Source: a virus
Direction: 5' to 3' (one strand)
Length of the DNA stretch: 42,506 nt
Virus record (IMG/VR): IMGVR_UViG_3300022602_002425
Location: 1 to 42,506 of that record
Numbering within the stretch: the stretch's first letter is position 1; every line of letters starts with the position of its first letter. A model generated the notes under the pieces. That model did no database searches, had not been told where the DNA came from, and saw only the letters and a program-made list of their open reading frames with translations. The position numbers and the translations under genes are program-made. This document shows positions 604 through 33,500 of the stretch, piece by piece.

Positions 604-612
604 ATATTTATC
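604..612 (-). promoter_or_regulatory. Late-promoter-like motif GATAAATAT
   Basis: Minus-strand GATAAATAT, differing from T4's late -10 element TATAAATA only in the first base. It lies 24 bp before the start at 580 and overlaps the stop codon (608-610) of the preceding gene. It belongs to a recurrent family in this window. Confidence 0.5.
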
Positions 613-1591
613 GTTTGATGGCTGGACCGCCGAAGATGTTGCCTTTCATATCGGCACCATTTTTAGCTGTTCCATCACTATTTTTAGGCTGTACTACTTT
701 AGGCTGTGGGGGTGCTTTAGTACCCGATCCTGTTGCCATACTACCTGTATAGCTCTTTTTGCCACGTGCTTTGCCTGGGCTAAGTTGTGGGCTAACTACG
801 GTTCCGATGTTAGCAGCACTAGTTGCGCCTGCTGTAGCTGATTCTTTAATACCAGCACCATTGGCTTTTTGAACAGCTTGATAAAATGCCTTGGCTTGTT
901 CTTCGGTAGGATTCTTATACATCTGACTTAACAAGTTATGTGCATCATTTAAGGCTGGTACACTAGGATGTCCTTTACCTAACGCCATCATACGCTGATT
1001 AAGTTGGTCTTGTACTCGTGCGATCGATTGTGAATCTTTTCCTATGGTATTTAGAAAACCAGGCAATTTTGCCATAGCCGCACTAGCTATACCTTCCGCC
1101 ACACCTTGTTTTGATTTTAAGTTGGCTATGATTTTTTCAAGATTTTTGATTTTGACATCATGTGCTCCATTGGCATTGAATTTTTTATATTTGGCCAATT
1201 CTCTCTCGTAGTTTTTGATATTGGCAACGGTTCGGTCATCGCCCTCCGCCACACCTTGTGGTTTGCCAAATGGATGTACTTCGACCCATTTACCGCCTTG
1301 ATTTTGAATCCATTTACCTTGGTGATATTTGCTTTTTATAATATTATGCACTCTTAGTGCGGCTTCTATACCATCTCTATAGCCTAAATTACGTGCTTCG
1401 CGTTCTTGATGCCCGGCAATCATGTTTTGTTTAAGTCTACCTTCATGCGGGTCATATCTATACCAAAGATTGGCTTCGTCATTTCCGCCACGCAAATCGT
1501 TGCCATCGCTGTCATAATAGTTTGTAAAACTACCGTGTCTGCCTTCTACTAATTCTTTAGTATTAAATCCTGTTAAGTCTTTAATTTTCAT
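608..1591 (-). CDS. Putative capsid-targeted, protease-processed protein with repeated GVAEG sites
   Basis: The ATG at 1591 is chosen over an upstream in-frame start because AGAGGAATTAAAA precedes it directly. It gives 327 aa and an 11 bp overlap with the previous gene. The N-terminus (MKIKDLTGFN then KELVEG) has the layout of a T4 capsid-targeting sequence ending in a prohead-protease site, L-V-E|G at 14-17. GVAEG recurs at 113-117 and 163-167, exactly 50 residues apart, and I-K-E|S lies at 248-251. In T4, gp21 protease cuts after (L/I)-x-E, so the protein could be cut into several peptides. The tail (from ~260) is low-complexity, Lys/Gly/Pro-rich, with a VVSP motif also found in the product of 2633-3718. 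No enzymatic domain was recognised. Inferred role: internal head or scaffold-like protein. Confidence 0.75.
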   Translation of the reverse strand: MKIKDLTGFNTKELVEGRHGSFTNYYDSDGNDLRGGNDEANLWYRYDPHEGRLKQNMIAGHQEREARNLGYRDGIEAALRVHNIIKSKYHQGKWIQNQGGKWVEVHPFGKPQGVAEGDDRTVANIKNYERELAKYKKFNANGAHDVKIKNLEKIIANLKSKQGVAEGIASAAMAKLPGFLNTIGKDSQSIARVQDQLNQRMMALGKGHPSVPALNDAHNLLSQMYKNPTEEQAKAFYQAVQKANGAGIKESATAGATSAANIGTVVSPQLSPGKARGKKSYTGSMATGSGTKAPPQPKVVQPKNSDGTAKNGADMKGNIFGGPAIKR

Positions 1592-1817
1592 TTTTAATTC
1601 CTCTGTATCCTGTACCAACAGCACGTTCACCGTTCATAAACTTGGGTAAACTAAACCACAACTTGAACCATTCTTCAGTTCCAGGCTGTATATTTTGTTC
1701 ACGCATAATCTTTGCTTTCTCTGTACCAGTTATACTGATATTACTTCCGCCATAAGGTTGCAGGCCTTTAAACTCGTTAATGCCGGCTAACTTCTTAAGA
1801 CGTGCTATTTCATCCAT
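1581..1817 (-). CDS. Small conserved phage protein, 78 aa, possible cargo family member
   Basis: The start at 1817 forms a TAATG overlap with the dps stop, and the 3' end overlaps the next gene by 11 bp, typical of translational coupling. The N-terminus (MDEIARLKKLAGINEF) is a short amphipathic helix followed by I-N-E|F at 13-16, which could serve as a prohead-protease site as in its neighbours. The rest is polar, with no recognised domain, signal peptide or membrane segment. Its position inside the putative head-cargo block is the main clue. The cargo assignment is weaker than for the genes starting MRAKEF, MRIKEL or MLLREF, because the first six residues do not match that pattern. Confidence 0.7.
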   Translation of the reverse strand: MDEIARLKKLAGINEFKGLQPYGGSNISITGTEKAKIMREQNIQPGTEEWFKLWFSLPKFMNGERAVGTGYRGIKNEN

Positions 1818-2254
1818 TATTTAAGACTCGCTCTCAACATCCAACTATGTTTTTTATGTGCATCTTGGCGATCTGCTAAAAAGTTACTTAGTCCGTGATC
1901 CCCATTAGCTTCAGCCATGTCAAATGTAATACGGAATATGTTAGCCATACGTTCACTATCTTCTAATAATTCACTTAACATTCCGTGAAAATCTGGAACT
2001 GCGTTTTCATCTTCTACTTTACTAAGCATACTAAATTTTTGTAAACTTGCTGGGGTATAAATTTGTAAAGCACGTAATTGTTCGGCAAACGTATCTATGC
2101 TGTCATATACTTCTGTATAAATGCGTTCAAATAACAAATGCAAAGGATAAAATAACGGTCCTTCGCAGTTCCAGTGAAAATTTTGTGACTTAATGGCAAA
2201 TGCATATTCACTGGCAAATGCTGTTTTAAGTGCTAAGTGGTATTTCTCGTCCAT
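1817..2254 (-). CDS. dps: Dps-like miniferritin
   Basis: A 145-aa protein of the Dps/ferritin-like four-helix family, which forms dodecamers that oxidise and store iron and, in many bacteria, shield or compact DNA. The ferroxidase ligands are all visible: H27 (in FHWN), H39, E43, D54 and E58. Their spacing (12, 4, 11, 4) equals that of E. coli Dps H51, H63, D67, D78 and E82. It lacks the Lys-rich N-terminal tail E. coli Dps uses to bind DNA, and it starts directly with helix A. It sits between putative capsid-cargo genes, 1 bp after one and overlapping the next by 1 bp, so it should be made late. It has no capsid-targeting N-terminus itself. Possible roles: protecting DNA from Fenton chemistry in the infected cell, or in the virion if packaged. 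Confidence 0.9.
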   Translation of the reverse strand: MDEKYHLALKTAFASEYAFAIKSQNFHWNCEGPLFYPLHLLFERIYTEVYDSIDTFAEQLRALQIYTPASLQKFSMLSKVEDENAVPDFHGMLSELLEDSERMANIFRITFDMAEANGDHGLSNFLADRQDAHKKHSWMLRASLK

Positions 2255-2255
2255 G

Positions 2256-2633
2256 TTAAATTCCGTACTTGTTCTTTTTATGTTTAGCTACTGGGCTTAT
2301 TCTATGAGTATTATTGGGTTCTACACTCTTTTTAAACGGCAATACTTCGTGATCTTCTGTTGGAATAGCTTTACGTGCATCTCTAAACATATTATGTTCT
2401 ATTTCAGTATAAGGGTGTTGAGTCCAATATGGTCCCATCCAGCTTTCGTGGTCGATGTTTGGAGGAATCTTACCCGAACCATCCATCATGCCAACTATCA
2501 TACCTGTGCGATACTGATGGTATGTAGGATAATAACCGCCAGGGTCTCTATCTTTTCTTATACCTTGATGAACACTAGCATGATAATCATGATGTGTTCC
2601 AGTACGTTCAGTAATAAATTCCTTTGCTCGCAT
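2256..2633 (-). CDS. Putative capsid-targeted small protein, paralogue of the C-terminal part of its upstream neighbour
   Basis: A 125-aa protein starting MRAKEFITE|R, very close to the T4 internal-protein targeting sequence MKTYQEFIAE: EFI-x-E is shared and is followed by a predicted I-T-E cleavage site. The body shares landmarks, in the same order, with residues 230-361 of the product of 2633-3718: YxQYRxGM, a YTxxE...DAxKA stretch, and a SPV...KNKYGI C-terminus. The two genes are adjacent and overlap by 1 bp (TAATG), so a tandem duplication is likely. His- and Tyr-rich, function unknown. Inferred to be an internal head protein carried into the host. Confidence 0.75.
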   Translation of the reverse strand: MRAKEFITERTGTHHDYHASVHQGIRKDRDPGGYYPTYHQYRTGMIVGMMDGSGKIPPNIDHESWMGPYWTQHPYTEIEHNMFRDARKAIPTEDHEVLPFKKSVEPNNTHRISPVAKHKKNKYGI

Positions 2634-3718
2634 TATATACCGTATTTGTTTCTTTTTTGTTGTCTAACAGGACTTACAACATTGCCACCTTCGGCTTCAT
2701 TACTAACGCCATCGCTTATATGTGTAATAGCACCTGCTCCGACAGCTTTTGCGGCATCTTTTACCTTTTGCATTTCTGCATCTGTATAAGCAGTAATTAA
2801 CGGATCACCGCTCATAGCACCAGCACGAGGCATATCCGGATTAGCCATAGCCATACCAAATCTATATTGCATGTACGGACTACCATTGGCTTTATTCATG
2901 CTAATGTTAGGAATACTCATGGCATTTTTTAATGCCTGAATATGTACATGGTGTAATTCTTCTGCACCTTTACCAGCGTAAGGAACATCTCCCTCCGCTA
3001 GTTGTTTGCGCATAAATTCTTGTGCTCTCATCTCTCTTATTACCTTATTAGCATATTTAACCGATTCTTTCTTAACCTTCTTACCAAATGCAGGATCTGC
3101 CATACGTTCTCCAGCTTTAGTCATTAAGTCTCGCACTTCGTCGTCACTTAACTCTGGACTCATTGCATCGCGCCACGCTTGAAACTTTTGTTCATCGCTT
3201 GCATTTGGATCTTTAAGAACATCACGCATTGGAGTAGCACGGGGTCCTTCTTCTTCTCTGCTAGGATCATTTGTTTCTTGACGGGCAATAACTTCTAAAT
3301 GATCGAAATGAAAAGGAATGTTACCTTGTTTATCTGCTACACCGTTATATTGTTTAACATAACTCAGTGCTTTAACTTGATCTGCACCTACTACAACTGT
3401 GCAACTAGTGTATCCCATTTCGTTTAACTTGCGTAATACACGAGTTAAATCGGGCATTTCTTCAGTAGCTACATGGAATATTTGCCCATGATGTGGAAAT
3501 ACTTTTTTATAAATTCCTATTTTTTCTTCAGGATACAGTGGATCGTCTTTACCTACACTGCGACTTAAAACAAAATACGGATCTGCATTGTGTTCACGTG
3601 CTTGTGTAATAACGCTACTGGCCAACATCATATGGCCTTTGTGACCCATACCACGACCCCAACCGACTACGGCTGATTTGCCTTTACCTGTACGATTTAA
3701 AAATTCACGTAATAACAT
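2633..3718 (-). CDS. HxGH-type nucleotidyltransferase-like protein fused to a capsid-targeted module
   Basis: 361 aa. The N-terminal half resembles the HIGH/cytidylyltransferase-like (NMNAT-type) fold: a glycine-rich strand, H26-K-G-H29 (the HxGH nucleotide-binding signature), and an LSRSVGKDDPL stretch in the position of the family's Ser/Arg-rich motif. It starts MLLREFLNR, like other putative cargo genes here, but lacks a clear L-x-E just after. From residue 230 a second targeting-like start appears in frame (MRAQEF, then L-A-E|G at 240-243), followed by a domain paralogous to the next gene. This looks like a fusion that kept an internal protease site. An internal start at 3031 is possible (AAGG 11 bp upstream), which would give a 132-aa product. 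The substrate cannot be told from sequence. Confidence 0.7.
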   Translation of the reverse strand: MLLREFLNRTGKGKSAVVGWGRGMGHKGHMMLASSVITQAREHNADPYFVLSRSVGKDDPLYPEEKIGIYKKVFPHHGQIFHVATEEMPDLTRVLRKLNEMGYTSCTVVVGADQVKALSYVKQYNGVADKQGNIPFHFDHLEVIARQETNDPSREEEGPRATPMRDVLKDPNASDEQKFQAWRDAMSPELSDDEVRDLMTKAGERMADPAFGKKVKKESVKYANKVIREMRAQEFMRKQLAEGDVPYAGKGAEELHHVHIQALKNAMSIPNISMNKANGSPYMQYRFGMAMANPDMPRAGAMSGDPLITAYTDAEMQKVKDAAKAVGAGAITHISDGVSNEAEGGNVVSPVRQQKRNKYGI

Positions 3719-5574
3719 TAGTCTTTCCTTGGAGCCCAGTTAGCCTGGTCAATAGTTTTAACAAACTGCCCGGGTAAGTCGTGTTTAAACTTACCGCCAG
3801 GGTGAGCTTGCACGTACCCTTCTGGTTTTGTTTGTCTAATGCCACCGTGTGTGCCACTGCTTAATGCGCCGATTACTTTCATCTTTTCATGTGTTAGTAA
3901 TTCAACAGCAGTAAGGATTGCATCTAATCCAGGATGGCTTAACACTTTTTGTGCTTGGCTAGCACTTAATTTTTCATTAGCCCATTGTACAAACTTTTGT
4001 TTAACACCGGCTACACGTAAATTCTGATTGAAGAAACTGTACAATACATCGCCAGGTTTACTTAGACCAGGTTGTCCTGCAACAAAGCTATCAATAGCAG
4101 CTTTGTTTTGCTTGATATAATCTTCAGCATGTTTCAAACCTGTGTCGTCTACTTGCGGAGCATTTTCAACATACGTTGTACCTTGCACAATTACATCTGG
4201 TTTTGAAAGTTTCTCAGCATCTGGATAACGTGTTTCATCTGCACCAATGTGTGTATAGTAGCCAGTTGCGGCAACCATAACTTTAGCCTTGGCAATTTTC
4301 TTACCTAGTTCACTTGATTGCGGAATATGAAATTCTGTTATGTTTGGTTTAAAATCGTACTCGTGTGTACTGTCATTTAACTGTGGAGGATTCAACGGAC
4401 TGAATAGTATTCCACCTTCGATATATCCTGATTTAGGACTAATCTTTTCAAAGTAAGGCCATAACTGAGCCATTCCCATGGCAAACTGTTGTCGTTGTTG
4501 TTCTTGTCCAGGCTGTGCGTTGCCAGTACCTAAAACAAATTGTGCTACATCGTCTGGATCGTTCATCATGGTACGCACACCGGTTTTAGTTTCGTGTGCT
4601 CCACGTTTTAAATATTCCCAAGCATTTTTAGGAAACATGTGGAACTTACCATGTTCATCACGACCCCAGTATACAACAGGACTACCATCCCATTTTAATT
4701 CGATACTTCCACCTTTGGTAGTCATATGACGTAGACGTTCAATGGCGTGTAATCCGCCTGTACTACCATTTGTAAAAACTAAATCTTCAATGTGCTGATA
4801 TTTACGACCTACAGCAGGTTTAGCCGCCGCTTCGTTAATTGGACTTGGGCTAACAGCTTGCCAACTTGCACCGCTACTTGCTTTGTCAAATATTTCTTTT
4901 TTACGTACTGGATCAGGAATGGCATCCATGATACTTTCAACACTACCTAAACTTTTAGCACTAGCATGTGGTCCGAGAAGTTTCTTGGCAATAATGTCCA
5001 AGTCGTCACTAATAAAATCAGATTTTTTACCAGCGGCATCTCTAGCATACAAGCCTTCATCAGGACTCCACAACATTCCTTGACTTGATGCTAGAGCATT
5101 CATCATCATCTGTTTGTGTACGCCTTTATAAGGGCTACCTTGTGGAATAGCGTGTGTGTGAAATGCAGAAACTTTTTCAGCGTTTTTAACAGCTTTAATG
5201 TCTACTTGGTAGTGTTTGCCTTTGTATGGTAACAGTATATGAACCGTTACACCAGTGCGGCGAGTTTGTAAACCTTTTTGTTGTAAGTATTGTTCTAATG
5301 CTTGTCTAGCTATTTTAGAATCTTTGGCTTTAAATTGTGCCATGATAGGATCTAAGTCCACCATAACATCTAAATCGCCACTGATTTTTCCAGGAGTTGG
5401 TGTTGCTGCACTACCAATTAAATGTGCTTTGACATTAACACCATGCAAATATTTGTTAGTCTCTTGAGCCAAATGCGCGGCGATAGCTTGGTCAAATCCT
5501 TCTGATTCTGGCCAAATATTACCGCCTTCTAATAAAGGTCGCTTTAGGCCTGCAAACATTTCACGTAGTAACAT
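3718..5574 (-). CDS. Two-domain protein: Pol-beta-type nucleotidyltransferase plus nucleic-acid-ligase-like domain, putatively packaged
   Basis: 618 aa. The N-terminus (MLLREMFAGLKRP then L14-L-E16|G) fits a capsid-targeting peptide with a prohead-protease site. Residues ~50-135 carry a Pol-beta/minimal nucleotidyltransferase signature: G54-S55, then G66-D67-L-D69 and a later D in YQVDIKAV, matching the GS...DxD...D metal ligands. Around residue 293 there is LKWDGSP, matching ligase/capping-enzyme motif I (K-x-D-G, the adenylated lysine). Around 385 EGGILF resembles motif IIIa/IV. The combination suggests nucleotide addition and end joining or repair of DNA or RNA, possibly on phage DNA just after injection; this is inference. 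It is coupled to its neighbours (TAATG with the next gene; AAGGA ribosome site inside the previous gene's end). Phage proteins of this layout exist among T4-like viruses, but I know of no assigned function. Confidence 0.7.
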   Translation of the reverse strand: MLLREMFAGLKRPLLEGGNIWPESEGFDQAIAAHLAQETNKYLHGVNVKAHLIGSAATPTPGKISGDLDVMVDLDPIMAQFKAKDSKIARQALEQYLQQKGLQTRRTGVTVHILLPYKGKHYQVDIKAVKNAEKVSAFHTHAIPQGSPYKGVHKQMMMNALASSQGMLWSPDEGLYARDAAGKKSDFISDDLDIIAKKLLGPHASAKSLGSVESIMDAIPDPVRKKEIFDKASSGASWQAVSPSPINEAAAKPAVGRKYQHIEDLVFTNGSTGGLHAIERLRHMTTKGGSIELKWDGSPVVYWGRDEHGKFHMFPKNAWEYLKRGAHETKTGVRTMMNDPDDVAQFVLGTGNAQPGQEQQRQQFAMGMAQLWPYFEKISPKSGYIEGGILFSPLNPPQLNDSTHEYDFKPNITEFHIPQSSELGKKIAKAKVMVAATGYYTHIGADETRYPDAEKLSKPDVIVQGTTYVENAPQVDDTGLKHAEDYIKQNKAAIDSFVAGQPGLSKPGDVLYSFFNQNLRVAGVKQKFVQWANEKLSASQAQKVLSHPGLDAILTAVELLTHEKMKVIGALSSGTHGGIRQTKPEGYVQAHPGGKFKHDLPGQFVKTIDQANWAPRKD

Positions 5575-5576
5575 CT

Positions 5577-5948
5577 TTAGTCCTTATACTTGCCGTCACT
5601 GACGTGTTCTTTAAATTCTTCGTGTAATTTATCGCAAATCTTTTCGCATAGTTTTTCATCTATAGTGTCGTTTAATTCACGGATAGGAAACTTTTTAATA
5701 TAGGCTTTATAGCTACTTTCTACTGCCGGCTTGAATACATTTTTACTTGTAGGTTTTTTATCTTTAATATTATCTAATAAATGGGCAAGTTTAGGATACA
5801 AATGGCGGCGATATATGTCGTCATCGTTATGCATGAAATACATTAAATCTTCAGCTAAATCAAAGTTGATTTCGCGCTTCTCGCCTTTTTTATCGATGAA
5901 ATCTTCAGCATCGAAATTTGCGCCTTCTAGTAGTTCTTTTATTCGCAT
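5577..5948 (-). CDS. Putative capsid-targeted small protein, first gene of the late cargo operon
   Basis: 123 aa, starting MRIKELLE|G: a short basic-hydrophobic peptide ending in L-L-E|G at 6-9, a consensus-like T4 prohead-protease site. The remainder is charged and mostly helical (many Lys, Asp and Glu), with no known motif, signal peptide or membrane segment. It is the first gene after the GATAAATAC motif at 5995-6003, with a ~46 bp leader containing a small hairpin. The ribosome site is weak (GGG about 8 bp upstream). Inferred to be an internal head protein. The alternative is a cytosolic protein of unknown function whose N-terminus matches by chance, but five similar starts in one block make chance less likely. 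Confidence 0.75.
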   Translation of the reverse strand: MRIKELLEGANFDAEDFIDKKGEKREINFDLAEDLMYFMHNDDDIYRRHLYPKLAHLLDNIKDKKPTSKNVFKPAVESSYKAYIKKFPIRELNDTIDEKLCEKICDKLHEEFKEHVSDGKYKD

Positions 5949-6021: not shown

Positions 6022-6648
6022 CTATGCTTTGACGATGCGTTCAACTTTGCTTATTGAGCCGCCTAAGTGCATTTTAGCTAGTAAAAGATTGTTATCGCCC
6101 GTGATATAGAAGTGTGTGCCGCCCCAAGTGCGGGATTTATTCAAGTCGCGTATACAACTTTTAGTCAACTTGCACTTTTTGTTGCCCTGGGCCCACGCTA
6201 TAAATGCGCTGTGTTCTTGTGTAGTTTTACCCAATGTAACACGGTATTCATAATCCATTTTAGGCATGATGATAGTATTAACATCTAACGAATTATGTGT
6301 TGGAGGAATACAGACATACTTTACATGGTCTGCATCTATAGATGCTAATGCGTCAATATCTGCCTTGTTGTTAGAATATATAGATATCCAAGGACTTTCT
6401 ACCCGTATTTCTATATCTGTAATTTTACTTAATGCTGATTGTAGTTGGAATGTATAGTCTAAATCGCTTTGAGTTTTAATAAAATTACTCTTCCAGGTTA
6501 ATTTTTTTGAATTTAAATCAATGGATGACAGTTCTTCAAGAACTGTCTCTATATCATTATTTCTAAATAAATTAGATCCGGCACATACCAACACTATTTT
6601 GTATTGGTATACACCCCGGAACAACTTTTTTGTAGTTTTATACAACAT
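6022..6648 (-). CDS. Conserved phage protein of unknown function, last gene of the dnaJ-def-clpA unit
   Basis: 208 aa from the ATG at 6648. A TTG 15 bases upstream (6663) is an alternative start but less likely. The gene overlaps the clpA 3' end by 11 bp. The N-terminus (MLYKTTKKLFRGVYQYKIVL) is basic. A WAQGNKKCKLT segment and a GGTHFYITGDNNLLLAKMHL stretch near the C-terminus look like a compact alpha/beta protein. No catalytic motif, signal peptide or membrane segment was recognised. It resembles a hypothetical protein I recall from T4-like marine phages, without known role. Co-transcription with the chaperone/protease genes suggests early expression, perhaps as an adaptor or host-takeover factor (inference only). 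Confidence 0.7.
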   Translation of the reverse strand: MLYKTTKKLFRGVYQYKIVLVCAGSNLFRNNDIETVLEELSSIDLNSKKLTWKSNFIKTQSDLDYTFQLQSALSKITDIEIRVESPWISIYSNNKADIDALASIDADHVKYVCIPPTHNSLDVNTIIMPKMDYEYRVTLGKTTQEHSAFIAWAQGNKKCKLTKSCIRDLNKSRTWGGTHFYITGDNNLLLAKMHLGGSISKVERIVKA

Positions 6649-8926
6649 TTTCTTGCATGTCAACTTTGGCCTCTGTACTGTCTACAGTTAACAACGGTAC
6701 TTTAATTTCTTTTGGTGTTGAAACTAACAGTACTTTATCTTCGTGAATAGTGATAGAAGCGACTCCGCCGTTTTTCAAATCTCCAAACAACATTTTCTTG
6801 GCAAGATCTCTCTTAATTTCCTTATCAATAACACGTTGTAGCGGACGAGCACCCATCTTATTATCAAAGCCTTTGTTGAGTAACCACTCAATGCCTTCTT
6901 TGTTAATCTTGATTTTGATACCTTTTTCTTTAACTTGTTCACGTAGTTCGTCTATAAACTTATGAACAATCTTGATCATAGTTTCCTTAGCCAACTTATT
7001 GAATGTAACAACGCCGTCTAAACGATTGCGGAATTCTGGAGTTAAGAACTTCTTCAAGTCTGCATCGCTGTAGTCTTTTTCCTGTGCGCCAAATCCGATA
7101 GCGTTCTTTTCAGCAGATTGAGCGCCAGCATTAGTAGTAAGGATAAGGATCAAGTTGCGGCAATCTGCTTGCTTCCCGTTTGAACCAGTGATAAAGCCAT
7201 TGTCCATAACTTGTAACAACACAGTCATAACGTCTGGATGTGCTTTTTCGATTTCATCTAACAACAATACAGCGTTAGGTGATTCTTGAATACCAGTAAT
7301 CAGTTGTCCAGCATTTTCTTCAAAGCCAACATAACCAGGAGGGCTACCGATTAATTTACTGATGCTATGCTTTTCTTGATACTCACTCATATCAAAACGT
7401 AGCAGTTTGACGCCTAAGTTCTTAGCCAAGGCTTTAGCAGTTTCAGTCTTACCAGTACCAGTTGGGCCCATGAACACAAAACTACCAACAGGTTTGTTTT
7501 CACTCTTAAGCCCGGCTTGTGCAACAATAATCTTATCTACAACTTCTGTCAAAGCCATATTCTGACCATAGACTTCTTTTTCAAGATTAGTTTGTAGTGT
7601 AGATAAGTTACTGCTTTCAGTTTCCATAATCTTTTCTTCAGGCATTTGAACCATCTTGGCAAGCTCAAACTGAATTTCACGCTCACCGATAATACGCTCA
7701 TCTGCCATCTTCAAATTAAATCGACTACATGCTACGTCGATCAAGTCAATAGCCTTATCTGGAAGTTTCTTATCTGTTTGATATTTGACTGACAATTTAA
7801 TAGCCGCTTGAATAGCATCTTCGCGGATTTTAACATTATGGAATCCTTCGTAGTATTTCTTAATACCTTTAAGGATTTGTAGTGACATTTCTTGCGTAGG
7901 CTCGTCAACAGTAATGCGTTGGAAGCGGCGCATTAACGCACGATCCTTTTCGAAGTGTTTACGATATTCTTCCCATGTAGTACTTGCCACTACTTTAATG
8001 TTACCCTTGCTTAGTGCAGGTTTCATCATGTTGGCTAAGTCGTTGGCACTGTTACTAGCACTTCCAGCGCCAGAGATCATGTGAGCTTCGTCGATGAACA
8101 ATACAGTCTTACCCTTCTTGCTCAGACCTTTTAGAACCATTTTAAAACGTTCTTCAAAGTCTCCACGGTACTTACTACCTGCAAGCATAGCTGAAATATC
8201 TAAACTATAGACTTTGTATTCTTTTAAGAAGTCTGGCACAGCACCGTTAACAATATTGTGTGCAAGTCCTTCGGCAATAGCTGTTTTACCGACACCGGGA
8301 TCACCTACAAGGATAACGTTGTTTTTACTACGACGACCCAACGCTAGTGCAATATTTTCTAATTCGTCAATACGTCCGATAACTGGATCGATTTTCTTCT
8401 TAGTAACTTCGTCATTCAAGTTGATAGTAAATGCTTTAAGAGCACGTTCACCTTGTCCATCTTGTTGTGGATTTTCAGATTCTTCAGTAGGTTCGATAGT
8501 GTTATTGAGGTAGTCTGAAAACTTATCTTTTTCAATATTTGCCTTGGCAATGTAATAATTTGCCCAACTGCGCTTTTCACCGATCATACTTAGGAAAATA
8601 TCAGTAGGTTCAATTTGTTGACGCCCGTTGAACAACACTTGTGTGAACGCACGATTTAGTACACGTTCAACCGCTTGTGTCTTTTTGGGTTTAACTACCA
8701 CATCTGGAACTGTAATCTCAGCACATTTATGCTGTAGATAATCGGATAGGTCAGTTTTTAGTTGGTCTGCATTAGCACCAAACCCTTGAATAATTCCGTA
8801 AAACCCATCATCCGCAAGCATGGCAAACAACAAGTGTTCAATTGTAAGATATTCGTGATGTAATTTTTTAGCGGTATCAATTGCTCTTTCAAATACCGCT
8901 TGTGTGTTATCACTTGGTTCAACCAT
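6638..8926 (-). CDS. clpA: ClpA-type AAA+ unfoldase with intact ClpP-docking loop
   Basis: 762 aa, the usual ClpA length. Order: Clp N-domain (1-145), D1 AAA+ module with Walker A GDPGVGKT near 208 and Walker B LFIDEAH near 280, then D2 with GPTGTGKT near 488, LLLDEIEKAH near 555 and arginine-finger region FRNRLD near 635. There is no ClpB-type middle coiled coil between D1 and D2, so it is ClpA-like rather than a disaggregase. An I-G-F tripeptide near 610 matches the [LIV]-G-[FL] loop by which ClpA/ClpX dock on ClpP. No clpP is in the window, so it may recruit the host peptidase. The start at 8926 is supported by AGAGGAAA 6 bp upstream and overlaps the def stop by 8 bp. The C-terminal ~25 residues extend past the D2 small domain. 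Confidence 0.95.
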   Translation of the reverse strand: MVEPSDNTQAVFERAIDTAKKLHHEYLTIEHLLFAMLADDGFYGIIQGFGANADQLKTDLSDYLQHKCAEITVPDVVVKPKKTQAVERVLNRAFTQVLFNGRQQIEPTDIFLSMIGEKRSWANYYIAKANIEKDKFSDYLNNTIEPTEESENPQQDGQGERALKAFTINLNDEVTKKKIDPVIGRIDELENIALALGRRSKNNVILVGDPGVGKTAIAEGLAHNIVNGAVPDFLKEYKVYSLDISAMLAGSKYRGDFEERFKMVLKGLSKKGKTVLFIDEAHMISGAGSASNSANDLANMMKPALSKGNIKVVASTTWEEYRKHFEKDRALMRRFQRITVDEPTQEMSLQILKGIKKYYEGFHNVKIREDAIQAAIKLSVKYQTDKKLPDKAIDLIDVACSRFNLKMADERIIGEREIQFELAKMVQMPEEKIMETESSNLSTLQTNLEKEVYGQNMALTEVVDKIIVAQAGLKSENKPVGSFVFMGPTGTGKTETAKALAKNLGVKLLRFDMSEYQEKHSISKLIGSPPGYVGFEENAGQLITGIQESPNAVLLLDEIEKAHPDVMTVLLQVMDNGFITGSNGKQADCRNLILILTTNAGAQSAEKNAIGFGAQEKDYSDADLKKFLTPEFRNRLDGVVTFNKLAKETMIKIVHKFIDELREQVKEKGIKIKINKEGIEWLLNKGFDNKMGARPLQRVIDKEIKRDLAKKMLFGDLKNGGVASITIHEDKVLLVSTPKEIKVPLLTVDSTEAKVDMQENVV

Positions 8927-9425
8927 TATATTTCCTCTTCTTTAGTAGTTTCTTTTTTGCCAATGCTAATTTTAACGTACTTACTTTTTCAACAAAACAA
9001 GTACCGTTCAGGTGATCTAGCTCATGTAAAAAAACTCTAGCATCTAGTCCTGTAAGTTTTATTATACGCGAATTTCCTGTTTTGTCAAAGTATTCGGCTA
9101 CAACTTCGGAAGGTCGCGATACATCTAACCATAAGTCTGGAAAACTTAAACAGCCTTCTTGACCTCGTTGTTGTTCTTCACTTACTGATACTATTTTTGG
9201 ATTGAACAGTCCAAATGGTTCTGCGGTGCTGGGCTTCATAACAAACACACGTTGGTTAAGCCCGACTTGATTTGCCGCAAGCCCGATACCATTATAAGCT
9301 ATCATTGTCTCGATCATTGCCGCTTCTAAGAATTCAGCATCGGCAAGAGAGTCCGGGTGATCAAACACCCATTCTTTTGTATTTTCTTTTAATACAGGAT
9401 CAGTGTTGTTTACTAATTTGAGCAT
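8919..9425 (-). CDS. def: Peptide deformylase
   Basis: 168 aa, normal length for type 1 PDF, which removes the N-formyl group from nascent proteins in the cytoplasm. All three family motifs are present: GIGLAANQVG (46-55), EGCLSFP (90-96, metal ligand C92) and HELDH (134-138, ligands H134 and H138, catalytic E135). The C-terminus is Lys-rich (ALAKKKLLKKRK) and longer than in marine phage PDFs that end just after the third motif. The 5' end overlaps dnaJ by 26 bp and the 3' end overlaps clpA by 8 bp, so the three are translationally linked. It is probably active. A phage copy may keep deformylation in step with fast phage protein synthesis. Confidence 0.97.
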   Translation of the reverse strand: MLKLVNNTDPVLKENTKEWVFDHPDSLADAEFLEAAMIETMIAYNGIGLAANQVGLNQRVFVMKPSTAEPFGLFNPKIVSVSEEQQRGQEGCLSFPDLWLDVSRPSEVVAEYFDKTGNSRIIKLTGLDARVFLHELDHLNGTCFVEKVSTLKLALAKKKLLKKRKYNG

Positions 9426-10272
9426 TTAATTGTTGTAGTTGTGCTACTAATGTTGGGTCTGTTACCTTAGGGGTTTTAATATTTACTACTCCGACAAACC
9501 TGCCTTTTAAACCGTTGTTAACGTTTGGAAATCCATGTCCGTTACTGGCAAATTCAACACCATTTTCAACACCTGCTCTAATGTCTAAATCTAAACTTGC
9601 ACCTGATAAAGATGTAATTTTTTTCTTAGTACCAATCATAGCCTCGATAGGTGTGATATCTATTTTAGTGTACAAGTCGTCGCCCTTGCGATCATACTTT
9701 GGATCGGATTGTACTAAAATTGTAACATTAAGATTACCACGCGGTGCATTTGGTACGCTGTCATCTCCAAGTCCAGAATATCTAATAGTGTCACCGTGTG
9801 TTACACCTGCCGGTACATTGATAACAACATTTTGATTGCGACCGCTAGGAAGTCTATAATTTGCTTCCAACTGCTTTCCATGGAAACTGTCTAGAAACGA
9901 AACAGTACATTGTATATTCAAATCTCTGTTACGTCGAACTTGCCCGCCACGCATGTGGCCAAAAATGTCTCCGAATGGATGACCGGCACCGCCAAATATA
10001 TCCCCAAATGGATTACCGGTATTAAAATGGAATTGTGTACCACCGAATGGATTTCCACCACCAGGCATACCGCCATACATACGTTGTTGATCGTACTCGG
10101 CTTTCTTTTGCGGATCGCTTAAATTTTCATATGCTACGCTAATATCTTTAAATTTGGCTTGATCACCGCCTTTGTCTGGGTGATGCTTATTAGCCAAACT
10201 TCTATATGCTTTCTTTATTTCTTCTGGGCTAGCGTTTTCATTAACACCCAGAGTTTGGTAATAATCAGTCAT
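9400..10272 (-). CDS. dnaJ: DnaJ/CbpA-type Hsp40 co-chaperone without zinc finger
   Basis: 290 aa. An N-terminal J domain (about 1-70) has the essential HPD at 31-33 (KHHPDKGG), which stimulates the ATPase of DnaK. A Gly/Phe/Met-rich linker (about 70-115) is followed by two beta-barrel substrate-binding domains. The CxxCxGxG zinc-finger region of class A DnaJ is absent, so this is a class B, CbpA-like protein. No dnaK is in the window, so it must act with host Hsp70. It is the first gene behind a consensus sigma70 promoter and therefore probably expressed early. It overlaps def by 26 bp. T4 itself lacks a DnaJ, so acquisition from a bacterium is likely (inference). Confidence 0.95.
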   Translation of the reverse strand: MTDYYQTLGVNENASPEEIKKAYRSLANKHHPDKGGDQAKFKDISVAYENLSDPQKKAEYDQQRMYGGMPGGGNPFGGTQFHFNTGNPFGDIFGGAGHPFGDIFGHMRGGQVRRNRDLNIQCTVSFLDSFHGKQLEANYRLPSGRNQNVVINVPAGVTHGDTIRYSGLGDDSVPNAPRGNLNVTILVQSDPKYDRKGDDLYTKIDITPIEAMIGTKKKITSLSGASLDLDIRAGVENGVEFASNGHGFPNVNNGLKGRFVGVVNIKTPKVTDPTLVAQLQQLNAQISKQH

Positions 10273-24509: not shown

Positions 24510-27500
24510 TTACATTCCTAATTTTTTCATTAGTGTGTCAATTTGTGATTGTTGACGTTCGATAGTTGCCTGCTGTTCTTTAATAGCTTCTACCAGTAAT
24601 GGAACAACTTTCTCGTAACGTACTGCCAAATAACCATTGTCACGTTCAGTTACAGCCTCTGGCAATACTGCTTGAACTTCCTGAGCTATCAATCCAACTT
24701 CACGCACATCAGCTTCTTTGCCTTGAGCGATTGCAATGTCATTCCATTCAAAAGTTATACCAGATAGTTTATTAACCTTTAGTACTGCATTGGCGATTGG
24801 TTCAAGATTGGTTTTTAATCTTGCATCAGATGTATAGTATGCTGTGATATCTCCGCCAGCTGTAATACTGCCTGAAACACCAAACGAAGCACAACTATAA
24901 CTGCTAGTTGAATTCAACGTTTGAGTCGATCCACTCAAACTGGCAAATCCTACATAAACGTGTGACGCCTCTTTGTATCCTGGACTACTGCTATAATCTC
25001 CGTTATCGTATACATATCTAGCGTTTGAAGCATTGGTTGCGTTTGTTGCGTTTGTTGCACTTGATGCGCTTGTTGCGCTTGTTGCACTACCAGCTGATGA
25101 CGCATAGCTTACACTTTGACTGCTAATGTTACTGGTAGTAATAGCATCAGTAATGCCGTAGCCAGCGATAGTGGTTGGCTTGCCAGTGATACCAGTAAAC
25201 GGAACAGAACTTGCAGTACCAGTACTAACAGCATTGTTCACATAATCAGTGCTGGCAAATGTTCTTCTTGTGTTGCCAGTGTCAGTGTAATACATATTAC
25301 CACCACTGAACTCAATGGATCCGGCTGTTGCACTTGACTTCAACGTGCCTGATGTAAACACCAGCGGAGCAGTTGATGCTGAACCTGGTGCAAGATTCAA
25401 ACTGACTGAACCACTCATGCTCACATTGCCAGTTAATGTGCCACCACTTAATCTCAATTTGTCACCATCGACAAATGCTAGAGCATTTTGTACGTCAACG
25501 GCTACAATGTTACCAGCTGGACTGAATGAAGTATTAATAGCCGATAATGACAAGTTTGTGTAACCATCTACTTCAACTAATACTGTATCGCCTGACGAAG
25601 TTGCGGTAGTAAATGTAAAGAATAACCCACTCGAATCTTCACTATAGTCGCTATCGCCGTCTTGACGTACACCATCGATGTAAATCTTTAATTGGTTATA
25701 ACCTGGTTTATACAACGGCGTACTAAATTTACTTGGACCATTATAACTGTAAGAGCTAGTAGTTCCTACTACAAATGTATAACGACTAGATGAAATAGTA
25801 GTACCGCTCGGAGGTATAGTAGTACCAGTTGGGTACCCCCATGTATATCCGCCACCTGTGTATGTAATAACCATTCCAGTTGATGGAGTTCCACTAATAC
25901 CAGCTGCAAACAACGAACTTAACGCACCGCTAGCAGTACTAGAACCAGTACCACCATGTGATATTGCCAAATTACCAGTTGATGCTTTACTCATGTCTAA
26001 GTTAGCATCAATAATGTTATTAGTTGCATCAACTAATAGTGTACTACCGTCAGTTGAATATACATTACCATGCAAGTTTCCAATTACAGCACCATTACCG
26101 CTGTTAACTGTTATGTTGCCCCCGGTTGCCAATGTGCCTGCAATAGTTGTATTACCGTTTGCACTATCTACTAAAAATTTAGTTACTGCTGGACTACCGC
26201 CATTAGTAATAGTAAATGGTTTAGCCAAAGACGTTGTAGAACCATTTAATGTTAAACTACTGCTTAGTGTAGTAGTTCCAGTAATAGTCCAGTTACCTGT
26301 TATAGTACCGTTGCTACCACTAGCGTTAGATGCATTCAATGTTCCGCTATATAATGTTCCATTGGTTGCATCAAAGTAACTAGTACCATCTGATGGTAAA
26401 CTCCAACGTCCTTTTAATGTACCTGTATAGCCACCAGATCCAGTTCCGCCATTAGCATAAATGTTAGCAGTTGTAAATGTAGCAGAGCTAACTACTACGG
26501 TGTTACCTGTGTTAGCATCAACGCTAAACAAGTTTGTAGGACTTCCGCCACCACTGTTGATTAAGAATGTTTTACCACTACCACCAATTAATGTAACATT
26601 GTTACTTAATACAGTTGAACCAGTTACATTCAATGCACCTGTTCCTGCAGATGTACCAGTCGCTGTATTAGTAAACGACACAATACCACTAACACCTAGT
26701 GTACCGCCCATTGTACTTGCACCAGTTCCAACACTAAATGTGCTTGAGCCTGTAATGCTAGTGTTACCACCAATAGTTGCAGTACTACCTACTGATAATG
26801 TAGTTCCAATCCAGAAACTCTTGGCAACCATTGCGCCACCAGCTACTTGGAAAGCACCATTAACACTTGGAGATGTTGCAGGTGTTGCGCTAGTTGCATC
26901 AGCTGTACTAGTTACGCTTTGTGTTGTTACAGTTTCTGCAAGTGTTGTAGTTGTTACACCTGTTACTGTTAAGTTACCGCGTACAACAACGTTACCGCTA
27001 TTGTCGATAGTAAAATACACAGCGTTAGCAGTAGTACCAACTTGTAATGTTCCACCAATAAATGTATTACCGTTTGAACTATCAACACTAAATGCAGTTG
27101 CAACAGAACCGTTATATGCTGCAAAACTTCCTGAATTAGTAATTACAGTAGAACTTGTTCCATTAGTAACAGTAAACAATTCTGTATTAGAATTTGTAGA
27201 ACCATTTACAGTTAAATTACTATTAACTACGGTATTTCCTGCTACGGTTAGTGTTCCATATAAGTTAGTTGCAGCACCGCCACCACCAGATGTACCAACA
27301 TTAAATGGTGTACTAGAAGTTAAAGTTACTCCACTACTTGCAGATACAGTCCATGTGTTTAATCCTGAACTAATTGTTGGAGGACTTGTTGTAGTCGATC
27401 CTGCGTATGCTCCAGCGAATGTCTGTGCTGCAAGTACTGGAGCGTAGGCTTCGCCAAAGAACTGTGTAAGTATTGCATTTGATGCGTTTACGCCGACAGT

Positions 27501-30500
27501 CATAAATCCAGGTGTACCACTCGGACTTACTGTTGCTGTTAATGTAGTTGATGAAACTGTTTGACTTGGATATACAGTCCATGCTGTACCGCTACCGCCT
27601 GTAATAACAGTACTAGCAGTTACGCCAGATCCTGTCACTAACATACCAATCATAATACTACCGCCAGTAACTGAACTGCTAATAGTCAATGCAGTGCCGC
27701 TAATAGAACCTGTGAAGGTTGCTGTATTAGTTGCACTAGTAGCACCAGGGAATCCAAATGTAATTTGATAATTTGTATTACCACTGTTTGTGGTGATAAT
27801 TGGATATCCTTGAACTTTTAATAAACCAACGTCGACTGTGCCAGTACTATCACTTTGAATAATACTACTAGTTCCGTGCGGATTATTTACAGGGTTGCTG
27901 ATTGGTAATACTACATAAGTATTTCCTAATCCAGTAACAGTTGCACCAGTGCCGTTAGTAGCATTTGAACTTGCGGCAACAGTCATAACACCTAAGTTAT
28001 TCAATGTTGTTGTGGTGCCTGTAAATTTATCATTAGTTACAGCATTACCATCTGTTATTATAGTAGTTACACTTACAGCAGTTGGACTTGCTTGCCCGCT
28101 AGTTCTGTTGTAAGGAATAGTACCAGTTGGGATATATGTAATCTTATTCAACTGTACACCAGTTGTGGTGCTTGTAGCAGTTTCTAAATCAACCCAACCA
28201 TTAGTTTGTGTAAACACAGCAGAGTTAAAACTGGCTAAACCGTTAGCAGCTTGTATTTGTTGACGTGTACCAGTTGGATATGCAGCTAATGTTGTACCGT
28301 TTGTAACAGTAGATATTACAGTACCGTTAGCACCATATACGTTAGTTGAATAACTTGCGCCAGGAACATTTAACAATAGTTTACTTTGTTCAATATCTGC
28401 TGTGCCACTAATCATGCTATCAACAATAACACCACTATTGATGCTAGTTGATAAACTGTAGCTACCAGTAGTTGCAATCATTTCAATTGGATTTACACTA
28501 GAGCCTACATTAGTTTGGCTAGTTACTGGCCATACTAAACCGCTACCGTTACCGATAATAGTTCCAACGGCCACACTAGATGTAGTACCACTAGAACCAA
28601 TTAGTGTCATGCCTTTGCTAATTGTTCCAACAATACTGCCACTAATAATGTACAAGTTGTTAGATTGTATGTAACCTTCGAAAGTAGCAGTAATTGGGCT
28701 TGTATAAGTTTCGCCAATAGTGTTACCAATAATTGTGCCACCTGATACATACGCTGAACTAATACCACTAGAGAAACTTACACTAGTTGTAGTAGGTGTT
28801 GGGCTGGCTAATACTGTATAGATACCGTTGTATGTTGCAGGTAATACCCCGCTAACTACAATAGTCTGTCCAGCATTATATGGTACACTAGATTGTGTAC
28901 TAAAGCTCAATGTTACAACACCAGCACTTGCAGTGATATTTGTAATGCTGATTGGACTACTATTGTTTGGCAATGCCAATTGAGCAGCTTGCCATGTTTG
29001 TGTAGGCGCATCAAATACTAATTGTGCTCCAGTTGGAATACTTGTAAAGTATACAACACCGCCAGGAACAAAATTTGGAACTTTGTTTAAAGTAATTGTA
29101 GCTACAGTTGTAGACCCAGCACTGGTTGTAGTTGTACTGGTACTTACATATTCAACAATTTGTGAACCATCAAAGGCCGGAGTAGTAACACCATTGCTTG
29201 TAACAGTTCCGCCACCGTACATAGCCATACCTGCTGTAATACCAGCACCTAAGTTACTTAAATTTGTACCAGTTACAGTACAAGTTATAGTATAACCAAC
29301 ACCACTCCAGCTTACGTTATTGGCAGTAGCGTATGGCAAGTATTCACCGTCTGCTAGTTTGAATAAACTATTTTGATTAAACAATGCAGTAGTAGTATAT
29401 CCTAAGTTAACAGCGTTAGTTGGTGCTGTTTGTACAGGCATGTTCATGTTGATGATGCCATTACCACCCATGTTCATTTGTCCACTCATAGCCAATTGGC
29501 CACTTAGCGCCATATAGCCTGGACCAATTAATTCATAGTTAGGAACAACGCTACCACCGTAGTCTAAACCTAATCGATAATCAATAAATGAACGGATAGC
29601 ACTTTGTACAGGAACAATATCAGCTGCGTTCTCAGTCATCTTAGCATCGCTAGAGAAGTCTGTTACTAACACACCACGTTGGAATTGTAAACCACTAACG
29701 TTTGTCAACGCAATGTTTTGACTGATACTAACTGTACCAGTACCTTGGTCAACGGTAAAGAATGAACCTACGCGGAAAATACCATTTTCATCTGTACTTA
29801 CATAGAATACACGACCTACGCCTTCTTCTAAAACTTGTTTAGTTGCGTCAGCTGGCAACGATGGGTTACCATAAATCTGTGTTGGAACGTTACTAGTATT
29901 GTAACCACCAGTACCAATTTGGTTAAAGTCGTGACCTGTAACACGAGTTAAACTAATACGTTGTGTAATTTGACCATTTGTATTAGCTGTATAACCTGCA
30001 TACAAGTTAGTGCTATTAGTTAAACTAAATGGTTTACTAATACCAATTGCACTGCCAGTTCCGCTAGACATTACTTGGAAAATATTTGTTGTCGATGTAA
30101 TGTATCCAGATGTCAATGCAGATGGAGATCCTACTAGTGCAAAAGTTACATAAGCAGTAGTACAAGAAGTTACAGTCCATATACCGTTATATGTACTTAC
30201 ATTTGCGCTAGTAATAGTAACTTTTTGTCCAGCTTGGTAAGGAGCACTAGATTGTGCTGTAGTAAAGTTTACCGTAGCTACGTTACTGGTTACACTACCA
30301 CTTGCAAGAGATAATGCGCCCGAGTCCCAGATACCCGGATCAAAAGAATATGCTAATACAATAGTAGATGTGCCTGAATTTGTATTGCTAGTAGTTTGCC
30401 ATATACCATTATACAGACCATTACTGTTATTTGTTATACTGTAGTATGCACCGTTAGTAATGCTAATGTTACCACTTAATGAAAGAGTAACAAGATATGC

Positions 30501-33500
30501 TCCTGATACACTGACACTCTTAGTTGAGTAACTACTTACAGTAGTGCCGGCATACTGATTAACGAAGTTCGGGCAATAGAATGCCATGGAACCTGCGCTG
30601 GTTACAGTTAATGACGGAACAAAAACTGTTGAAGTTACATAATTGTAATAGCTGCTGGCCACGGTAATTGTAGTCGAACTCGGTATTGTTAAAATATAAT
30701 ATGTAGCACCAGGGGTAATTGTACCAATTGCTGTACCAGTGAATATAATTTGTTGTCCAATAGTTAACCCGTTAGTTCCAGCATTACTGCTGATTGTTAT
30801 TAAGTTACCTGTAGTACTTGTTTGGCTAATAGATCCGTTTACACCAGCACTGTTAGGATACAATACACTTAATTGTGTACTACTTACACCACCGGTAGTT
30901 GTTACACTAGTATTGGCAAACTGACTTATCTCAGCTGTTAATTGTGCTGCACCAGGTAAACTAAATGTTAGTGTGCCAGTAGTAATGTTACTTGCAGTAC
31001 CTAGAATAGGACTTGTAGTTGAGCCATAAATGTATACAGAAATTAAACTTGTTCCTGTTACTTGGTTAACAACATAAGTTTGGCTAGCTGATAAACCACC
31101 GATAGAACCGATAATAGTTAACGGTGCTGATCTTGTTCCAGCTGTTTGATTGTTGTTAACTGTGTAAGTTGTACCAGTTATGCTAGTTCCAGTAGAAATA
31201 GTTTGTGCTGTACTTACAGTCCAAGTAGTGCCGCTTCCGCTAACAATGTAAGTTGCAGGGCTTATATTTGAACCACTTAAAATCATACCAACTGTAATAG
31301 TTCCACTAGTTACTGCACTAACTGTCATAGTAGTAGAACTAATTGTTGCAGTAAACACAGCAGAAGTTGATCCAGTGATTACTGTAGAAGCACTTATGCT
31401 ACTGCCAGAAACAATAGTCATTCCTTGATATATTGTAGCACTACCTGCACTAGTAATATACAAAGTGTTACCGCTGATATATCCGTAGAATGTTGGAGCA
31501 TAAACTGTTGACGAGAATGCAGTTCCAATAAAGTTAATAATAGAACCAGAAGATAACCCACTAGTGCTGTTAACACTGATTAAGTTTGTTCCGCTTACAG
31601 TTCCTGTTACAGTTCCTGTAACAGCACTAATTGATATAACAGGAGCACTTGTATAACCTTGCCCACCGTCAACAACAGTAACACTTTGAATTTGTCCACT
31701 GCCATCAGTTTTTAATGTTACAGCTGCAATCGCTTGAGTTGCGCCACTGCCACCGCCTGAGAATGTCAATGTAGGAGCAGTAGTATATCCACCACCTGCA
31801 TTAACAATATCAACTTTAGTTACATACGCATACTGAATACAACTAATTGTAGCACCGTTTGGAATCCAACATGCTGGACTTACAACAAATGTATTTGTTA
31901 ATGTGTTGATAGATTGAACAATAGTACCAGCTGGAACATTTCCTCCTGCTGTTGTAAATGATAATACTGCAGCATATACAGTAGCAGTAATAGTAGCGAT
32001 ACTTTGTGTTGTGCTTAGTTGATAAACTGCTCCGCCACCTGCACCGGATGTGCCACTAGTTTGACTTACAACATAAGTTCCAGCAGTTATGCCTGTGGCA
32101 AATATTTGCATACCAACTAGTATTGACCCACCAGTTACACTACTTGACACTGTCATTACACCACTGCTAGTGATACTAGCAGTAAATGATACAGCACCAT
32201 TACTTGCACCGGCAAATGATGCGGCAGTACCCGCAGCATATTCAGTACCAACGTTTGCAATAGTAGGTGTTACACTAATTTGATTAGATCCAACACTTGG
32301 ATTTACAACATAATATGTTGAAGTTGATGAAGGAACAATTCCGCCGAATCCCGATGAGTTGTCGTATGTACTACTTGAGAAAGTAATAATCTGACCTCTG
32401 TAGAATGTGCTAGGACCACTTACGATGGTTAATGTTAGTGTACTTCCGCTAATGCTTGATACGTAACCAGTAGTTTGTAAAATGCTTACAACCATACCAA
32501 CTGTTAAATTTGATACAGTATTAGTTGAAATAGTTGTTGTATTAACTAAGTTAGTAACTTGATATGTACCATCGTAGCTTGTATCAGTTAAAGTTAATGC
32601 TTCACCCAAACCACTGTTATATCCAGCAGCCTGGCTAATGCTTACAGTCCATGTACTGCCAACACCAAGTGTACCTTGTGTAAGGTTACTAACAATAGTT
32701 GTGTTTGTAGAAATTCCAGAACCAGTGATAACCATACCTGGTGCAATTACTGATTCTGTTCCTGTACCTTGTATACTTACAACTGTCAATACTGTACCAG
32801 CAGTACTACTACCAGTAGCATTACTAATGTAACCAGTAATAGCAGTAGTTGAACTATAACCTGAAATCTTCAATGAACTGTCAACAGGAGGTAATGAACC
32901 ACTTGGACTATATGGAGCAGTATATGTTACAATTTCTGCTGTAGTACTTCCAGCTTCTAATGCAGAACTTTGATAAGATAGTCCAGCTACTCCAGTTCCA
33001 ACACTTGAGTTATTATAAATTGGAGTAGCACTAAGTTGTAGATACCCGTTAACGTTAAAACCAAATTGTAATGGTGTGCCTACTGGGCTACTACCGATAG
33101 TCATAGTTTGATTTAGATATACAGTATATTCTAATGTGCTTTGACCAACACCGACACCATTGCTGATAACTGATGTAATGTAAGTTCCAGATGTAACACC
33201 TGTACCAGTAATTAGTTGTCCTGCATAAATGCTTCCACTAACGTTGTTAACTGTAAGTTGGGTACTTGAACCTGATCCAGATATTGTGTAAACATTACCA
33301 TATCCAGCATACAATGGTTGTGTATAACTTAACACTTGGTGTGTACGTCCATTCCATGCTAGTGCGTAGATACCAGTGTTAATTTGATTAATTGTTGGAA
33401 CGTCTGTGATTGTTGCAATCGCAACTTTATTATCACCTGTAGTTGCACCTTGTGTTAATGTTGAAAACACTAATGTACCTGTTGGAGATATTGTACTGCT

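Follow-up and report, generated by a model that had tools for sequence, protein, structure and literature searches.

A predicted head-targeted protein joining a family-X polymerase-like domain to a DUF6267 ligase-like domain in an apparent freshwater relative of phage T4

Why should a phage join a nucleotidyltransferase-like domain and a ligase-like domain in a single protein, behind what looks like a head-targeting peptide? The question is raised by an open reading frame (ORF) in a 42,506-nucleotide stretch of viral DNA (IMG/VR record IMGVR_UViG_3300022602_002425; this whole stretch is referred to as the window), whose source appears to be a freshwater relative of phage T4. The ORF lies at 3718–5574 on the minus strand and encodes 618 amino acids, with 38 stops on the plus strand of the same stretch. 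It starts with MLLREMFAGLKRPLLEGGNIWP in a plausible ribosome-binding context (aaggactaaagATG). An earlier note on this DNA had given the coordinates correctly but left the strand unstated. The features of the protein are listed below, where an arrow marks a predicted cut.

3718..5574, minus strand: the complete 618-aa ORF, comprising a predicted capsid-targeting propeptide, a PolX-like domain and a DUF6267 ligase-like domain (ORF listing, Pfam, homologue alignment)
5527..5574, minus strand: predicted capsid-targeting propeptide, residues 1–16 (MLLREMFAGLKRPLLE), with a predicted gp21-type cut after E16, LLE↓GG (58/58 homologues and the T4 motif)
4831..5526, minus strand: family-X DNA polymerase-like domain, residues 17–248 (Foldseek against the PDB, Pol lambda/beta, E 1.7e-6, prob 1.00)
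4831..4839, minus strand: predicted second prohead-protease site, INE248↓A, between the domains (52/58 linkers and whole-protein motif scan)
3721..4830, minus strand: DUF6267 (PF19782) ligase-like domain, residues 249–618 (Pfam, structure model, ligase-dominated fold matches)
4684..4695, minus strand: KWDG 294–297, ligase motif I-like, with the putative adenylated Lys294 (K, D and G invariant, 95/95)
3811..3822, minus strand: EGYV 585–588, ligase motif IV-like (E and G invariant, 95/95)
3757..3759, minus strand: K606, ligase motif V-like lysine (invariant, 95/95)

Full-length homologues of the fusion protein, 62–100% identical, occur in dozens of IMG/VR contigs; a scan of viral contigs gave 53 relatives and a second scan added full-length ones down to ~62% identity. 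No relative was found among 84,980 bacterial and archaeal species (one genome each), so the fusion gene is not obviously host-derived. Motif conservation in the fusion protein is far beyond chance. The GS...GDLD signature to which the earlier note had drawn attention corresponds to GS 54–55 and GDLD 66–69, invariant or nearly so across 23 aligned homologues, and the KWDG that it had placed near residue 293 lies at 294–297, where 95/95 DUF6267 domains, distant standalone ones included, have the same K294, D296 and G297. It had overlooked the third catalytic aspartate D125, the inter-domain site INE248↓A and the motif IV/V-like residues E585-G586 and K606.

The polymerase-like and ligase-like domains

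In the first third of the fusion protein, G54 S55, D67, D69, D125 and GSPYKGVHKQ (146–155) are conserved. These comprise the PolX-like residues GS 54–55, D67, D69 and D125 and a thumb-like GS at 146–147, and the Asp triad D67, D69, D125 is invariant in the alignment of 23 homologues. In the AlphaFold2 model of the complete protein, confidence is high at residues ~20–235 (block pLDDT 76–95), and a Foldseek search of the PDB with the N-terminal ~230 aa gave 107 matches at E<=0.001, the best 50 of the 107 being all Pol lambda/beta. The best match, 5cp2 (E 1.7e-6, prob 1.00), covers ~200 aligned columns, and both the Pol-beta palm fold and the C-terminal subdomain are present in the predicted fold. 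When the domain was aligned to PolX with hhalign, the catalytic residues fell in register and the score was no better than that of shuffles (54/150 column shuffles scored as high). PolX Pfam models (PF14791 included) gave no match on the window protein, NTP_transf_2 matched weakly in 6/18 members (best E 0.0015), and phmmer and profile searches of PDB sequences with either domain returned nothing relevant. Since no sequence profile matches PolX, the domain is named “PolX-like”, by fold. By predicted fold and catalytic residues only, the analysis supports a minimal family-X polymerase-like domain at the N-terminus; the earlier claim of a Pol-beta-like domain is upheld in this form, sharpened by structure prediction and fold search to the family-X DNA polymerases. 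An RlaP identity was also considered for this domain and received no support, as PF10127 gave no match and the fold search favours PolX.

With family-X polymerases (Pol lambda, Pol beta, viral PolX) the window domain has in common the palm and C-terminal subdomain fold and the Asp triad. It differs from them in that sequence comparison gives no match, the palm is not preceded by an N-terminal lyase domain, and the domain is fused to a ligase-like one and predicted to be capsid-targeted.

The C-terminal domain is a member of DUF6267 (PF19782; phrog_455; S-SM1 member T4-GC71), which is the sole Pfam match of the whole window protein (E 1.4e-15, 58 bits vs a cut-off of 27) and whose model matches 95/95 aligned relatives. 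To our knowledge, DUF6267 is a family of unknown function, and no mention of it was found in the literature searched, which was covered in part. With the standalone DUF6267 of Synechococcus phage DSL-LC02 as query, 468 phage records matched; DUF6267 records come mostly from cyanophages and also from Methylophilales, Pelagibacter, Vibrio and Stenotrophomonas phages. A DUF6267 relative in metaG-MbCM1 (NC_019443.1, 145353–146258) stands under an NrdB annotation, probably a misannotation or a fusion. The window domain and standalone DUF6267 are 20–26% identical (95-member diverse set). The members examined are standalone or, in S-PM2, fused to a cytidyltransferase, whereas in the window protein a PolX-like domain precedes it and a protease-type site separates the two.

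Within DUF6267, KxDG, EG(Y/F)V and the final K606 come in the order of ligase motifs I, IV and V, and K, D, G, E, G and K are invariant in 95/95 sequences, the assignment to these motifs being our own. At the motif III-like acidic residue, QGD is found in 73/73 standalone members and EGG in 22/22 fusions. The structure of this domain was modelled from 95 sequences (pLDDT 88.7, pTM 0.84), since a model from 23 close relatives had been of low quality there. None of the Foldseek matches of the 95-sequence model in the PDB is significant (best E 0.10, prob ~0.2, TM ~0.2); nucleic-acid ligases take all of the first 12 places and 40 of the first 50, a tally counted by hand in which many entries are the same few proteins. 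About six kinds of ligase make up this list, namely fungal Trl1, archaeal RNA ligase, African swine fever virus (ASFV) ligase, Lig1, LigIV and a Thermococcus ligase. In BFVD, the first match after DUF6267 relatives is the RNA ligase of phage Atu_ph07 (E 4e-3, prob 0.90). The hhalign comparison of DUF6267 with T4 Rnl1 was unconvincing, as 4/150 column shuffles scored as high, and RNA_lig_T4_1 matched weakly (E 0.039) in 2/95 DUF6267 members. A search for PF09511 (T4-Rnl1) in the genomes of relatives gave no match and is uninformative, since its controls were also blank. Ligase Pfam models had no match on the window protein, and for this reason we call the domain “ligase-like”.

The ligase claim of the earlier note gains from the invariant KxDG, from the motif IV/V-like residues and from the ligase-dominated fold list, but not from any significant PDB match. 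DUF6267 is likely, on its model and invariant residues, a ligase-type covalent nucleotidyltransferase. It shares with the established ones (fungal tRNA ligase, T4 Rnl1, ATP-dependent DNA ligases) KxDG, EGxV and the terminal-core lysine in the same order, together with a weak fold similarity. Unlike these, the window protein gives no significant sequence or PDB fold score and has a helical insertion before motif IV, and motif III is altered in the fusions.

By itself, the list of ligase matches does not tell DNA repair from RNA repair. In the main rival to a DNA-directed function, the protein would be a packaged RNA (tRNA) repair pair, in which, from the start of infection, the Pol-beta nucleotidyltransferase (NTase) puts back nucleotides and DUF6267, as an RNA ligase, rejoins tRNAs that host anticodon nucleases have cleaved. 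The top-ranked structural matches of DUF6267, fungal tRNA ligase and archaeal RNA ligase, point in this direction, as do the Atu_ph07 RNA ligase in BFVD and the two weak RNA_lig_T4_1 matches. Moreover, RlaP NTases acting with phage RNA ligases have been described (PMC7824862), a pairing of Pol-beta NTase and ATP-grasp ligase like that proposed here. However, the N-terminal fold matches family-X DNA polymerases and not other NTases, the RlaP model finds no match, the neighbouring genes searched included no recognisable kinase or phosphatase partner, and DNA ligases are also among the DUF6267 matches. DNA repair is preferred because of the PolX-like fold of the first domain and because in phage IME392 a PolX gene adjoins a DNA ligase gene; a function in RNA repair we regard as unlikely.

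Head targeting and prohead processing

The head-targeting peptide proposed in the earlier note proves to be a credible propeptide, MLLREMFAGLKRPLLE↓GG, judging by its conservation: [LI]-x-E↓(G/S) at residues ~14–17 is retained in 58/58 distinct homologues, with a varying P2 residue and spacer length. In T4, gp21 cleaves after L/I-X-E, and propeptides of 10–19 residues target the internal proteins to the head (PMC9026906). As a control, 25.5% of 760 ORFs have [LI]xE in residues 6–22; this control is loose and includes other head proteins, and the 58 homologues are mutually related. Between the domains, [LIVMF]xE[AGSN] occurs in 52/58 linkers; the background rate, taken from 32-aa stretches in other parts of these proteins, is 3.7%. 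Several of the 6 linkers without the motif look like slight variants. In the whole 618 aa, [LIV]xE[GASND] has two matches only, at E16 and E248.

A propeptide of the same type was found on standalone DUF6267 proteins in two clades outside the DSL-LC02/S-RIM32 groups (56/57 and 50/50 distinct N-termini), whereas those of the DSL-LC02/S-RIM32 cyanophage groups are without the tag. Since the inter-domain site stands at the position of the predicted propeptide cleavage of standalone proteins, the fusion appears to have retained this site between its domains. The protease and the capsid sites are known from relatives, as the 42.5-kb window does not span the gp21/gp23 region: the Peptidase_S77 (gp21) protease is present in 4/5 relatives’ genomes, and the N-terminal region of gp23 has LLE↓G in 4/4 and a second site that reads LME↓S in three of four and LRE↓S in the fourth. 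Elsewhere in the window, an ORF at 608–1630 (minus strand) with LVE↓G and two GVAE↓G (residues 29, 129 and 179) looks like another prohead-processed protein of several parts.

A short N-terminal propeptide ending in L/I-X-E is common to the fusion protein and the T4 internal head proteins (IPI-III, Alt), and a T4-type protease and capsid protein are found in relatives. In contrast to these internal proteins, the fusion protein is larger and has two enzyme-like domains and a predicted second, internal cleavage site. Head targeting of the fusion protein, as a prediction, is well supported by its sequence and by the packaged gene family of its partner. If the protein reaches the head, it could also be a structural or scaffold-associated component, its enzyme-like domains being relics or serving head assembly or DNA packaging. 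The conserved prohead-type cleavage sites would agree with this, and so would the detection of the partner by virion structural proteomics (PMC3037559), but in both domains the residues of catalytic type stay invariant amid variable surroundings, and such a role is very improbable.

The cytidyltransferase partner and the gene neighbourhood

Three neighbours of the fusion gene belong to the same conserved cluster.

2633..3718, minus strand: cytidyltransferase-like protein of the HIGH family; its ORF overlaps the fusion gene at the stop of the latter and has an internal LAE242↓G site (phrog_3041, E 1.1e-19)
2256..2633, minus strand: small protein with a start like a capsid-targeting sequence (CTS), MRAKEFITE↓R (sequence; conserved neighbour)
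5577..5948, minus strand: small upstream protein with a CTS-like start, MRIKELLE↓G (sequence; conserved neighbour in 81/85 loci)

In the 85 loci, to the extent that each covers the region, the genes follow one another as ClpB, g6022, small CTS-like protein, fusion, cytidyltransferase, small CTS-like protein and Dps, and the cytidyltransferase comes directly after the fusion gene in 77/77 loci with sequence there. The DUF6267 gene of cyanophages likewise adjoins a cytidyltransferase; in S-PM2 a single 597-aa ORF (L384, LN828717 93494–94684 and beyond) encodes both as a fusion. In S-SM1, the T4-GC190 cytidyltransferase adjoins DUF6267 (T4-GC71), and the main text of Sullivan et al. 2010 (PMC3037559) reports cluster T4-GC190 as detected in purified S-SM1 virions and does not name the short S-SM1 DUF6267 (T4-GC71) as a virion protein.

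Other observations concern the surroundings of these genes. The small CTS-bearing protein at 5577–5948 (minus strand) has a weak PADLOC match to PDC-M46A (E 1.5e-4). At 1817–2254 (minus strand), a Dps/ferritin-like protein (Pfam Ferritin, E 6e-20) lies in the conserved cluster that also holds the predicted packaged enzymes, and 6638–10272 (minus strand) holds a ClpB-like AAA+ protein, a peptide deformylase and DnaJ in tandem. An uninterrupted single ORF of 5728 aa occupies 24510–41696 (minus strand) beside tail-fibre genes. In cyanophage and Melnitz-3 loci (L055:7119-7928, L059:3098-3931, L056:3881-4966), the genes immediately upstream of DUF6267 encode proteins without a Pfam match that look by eye PD-(D/E)XK nuclease-like (D...SxKxG).

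The constant and sometimes fused partner, a HIGH-family nucleotidyltransferase that in a cyanophage relative weakly resembles NadR/NMN-adenylyltransferase, raises another explanation. Perhaps the Pol-beta NTase, a lysine-adenylating nucleotidyltransferase and the cytidyltransferase-like protein together form a packaged early effector, modifying host proteins, nucleotides or NAD-type cofactors and joining no nucleic acids; Alt of T4 provides an earlier example of a packaged enzyme whose target is the host (PMC9026906). Yet the PolX fold is a polymerase fold, not that of a minimal protein-modifying NTase, and the matches of DUF6267 are ligases, which makes an early effector rather improbable. 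As to a role in replication, a separate gp30-like ligase is present in two relatives, which argues that the DUF6267 fusion is not the replicative ligase.

A possible repair of the incoming genome

The reading we prefer is that of a prohead-processed, co-packaged pair of PolX-like and ligase-like enzymes acting on the incoming genome, a proposal that we place just on the probable side of even. Residues 1–16 would carry the precursor into the prohead core, in the manner of the capsid-targeting sequences of T4 internal proteins, as their motif suggests. The prohead protease would cut after E16 and E248, as expected from the motif and from gp21 in relatives’ genomes, releasing in the head a family-X polymerase-like enzyme of ~25 kDa and a DUF6267 ligase-like enzyme of ~41 kDa, beside which the cytidyltransferase-like protein would be co-packaged. 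The enzymes may then be ejected with the genome, where the PolX-like one could fill short gaps or extend ends and the DUF6267 enzyme, adenylated on K294, could seal the nick. Damage from virion storage or entry would in this way be mended before phage gene expression, and an action on the injected genome at this stage would fit the proposal. Going further, DUF6267 might be a new branch of the ligase superfamily packaged in heads, forming with a minimal PolX a prohead-cut polyprotein, a kit for gap filling and sealing, carried in the virion, by which the genome would be mended as it enters the cell; we offer this fuller version tentatively.

A parallel is known from African swine fever virus. 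PolX and a DNA ligase are among the repair enzymes that it packages, and these enzymes are proposed to work ahead of replication (PMC12172490). The two cases are alike in principle, with a small PolX and a DNA ligase in the particle as part of a base-excision-repair set; this is a functional analogy and common descent is not claimed. In the virus, PolX and ligase are separate proteins, whereas in the fusion-carrying phages they would come from one precursor and an AP endonuclease is not clearly found, the search in four incomplete relatives having given one sub-threshold AP_endonuc_2 match only.

Where T4-like phages are known to package enzymes, the targets are mostly the host or its restriction. 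No related work on packaged polymerase-ligase proteins in phages was found in the partly covered literature that was searched; the parts are of known kinds, and their combination and a function for DUF6267 appear to be new. If our proposal is true, the constant link between DUF6267 and a cytidyltransferase, reported from S-SM1 virions, would be explained, and a widespread cyanophage family without a function would receive a testable one. The phage would bring genome repair with it into the cell, ahead of the expression of any of its genes, much as has been suggested for African swine fever virus; on the fuller version, the kit would be to phages what the packaged repair set is to large eukaryotic DNA viruses.
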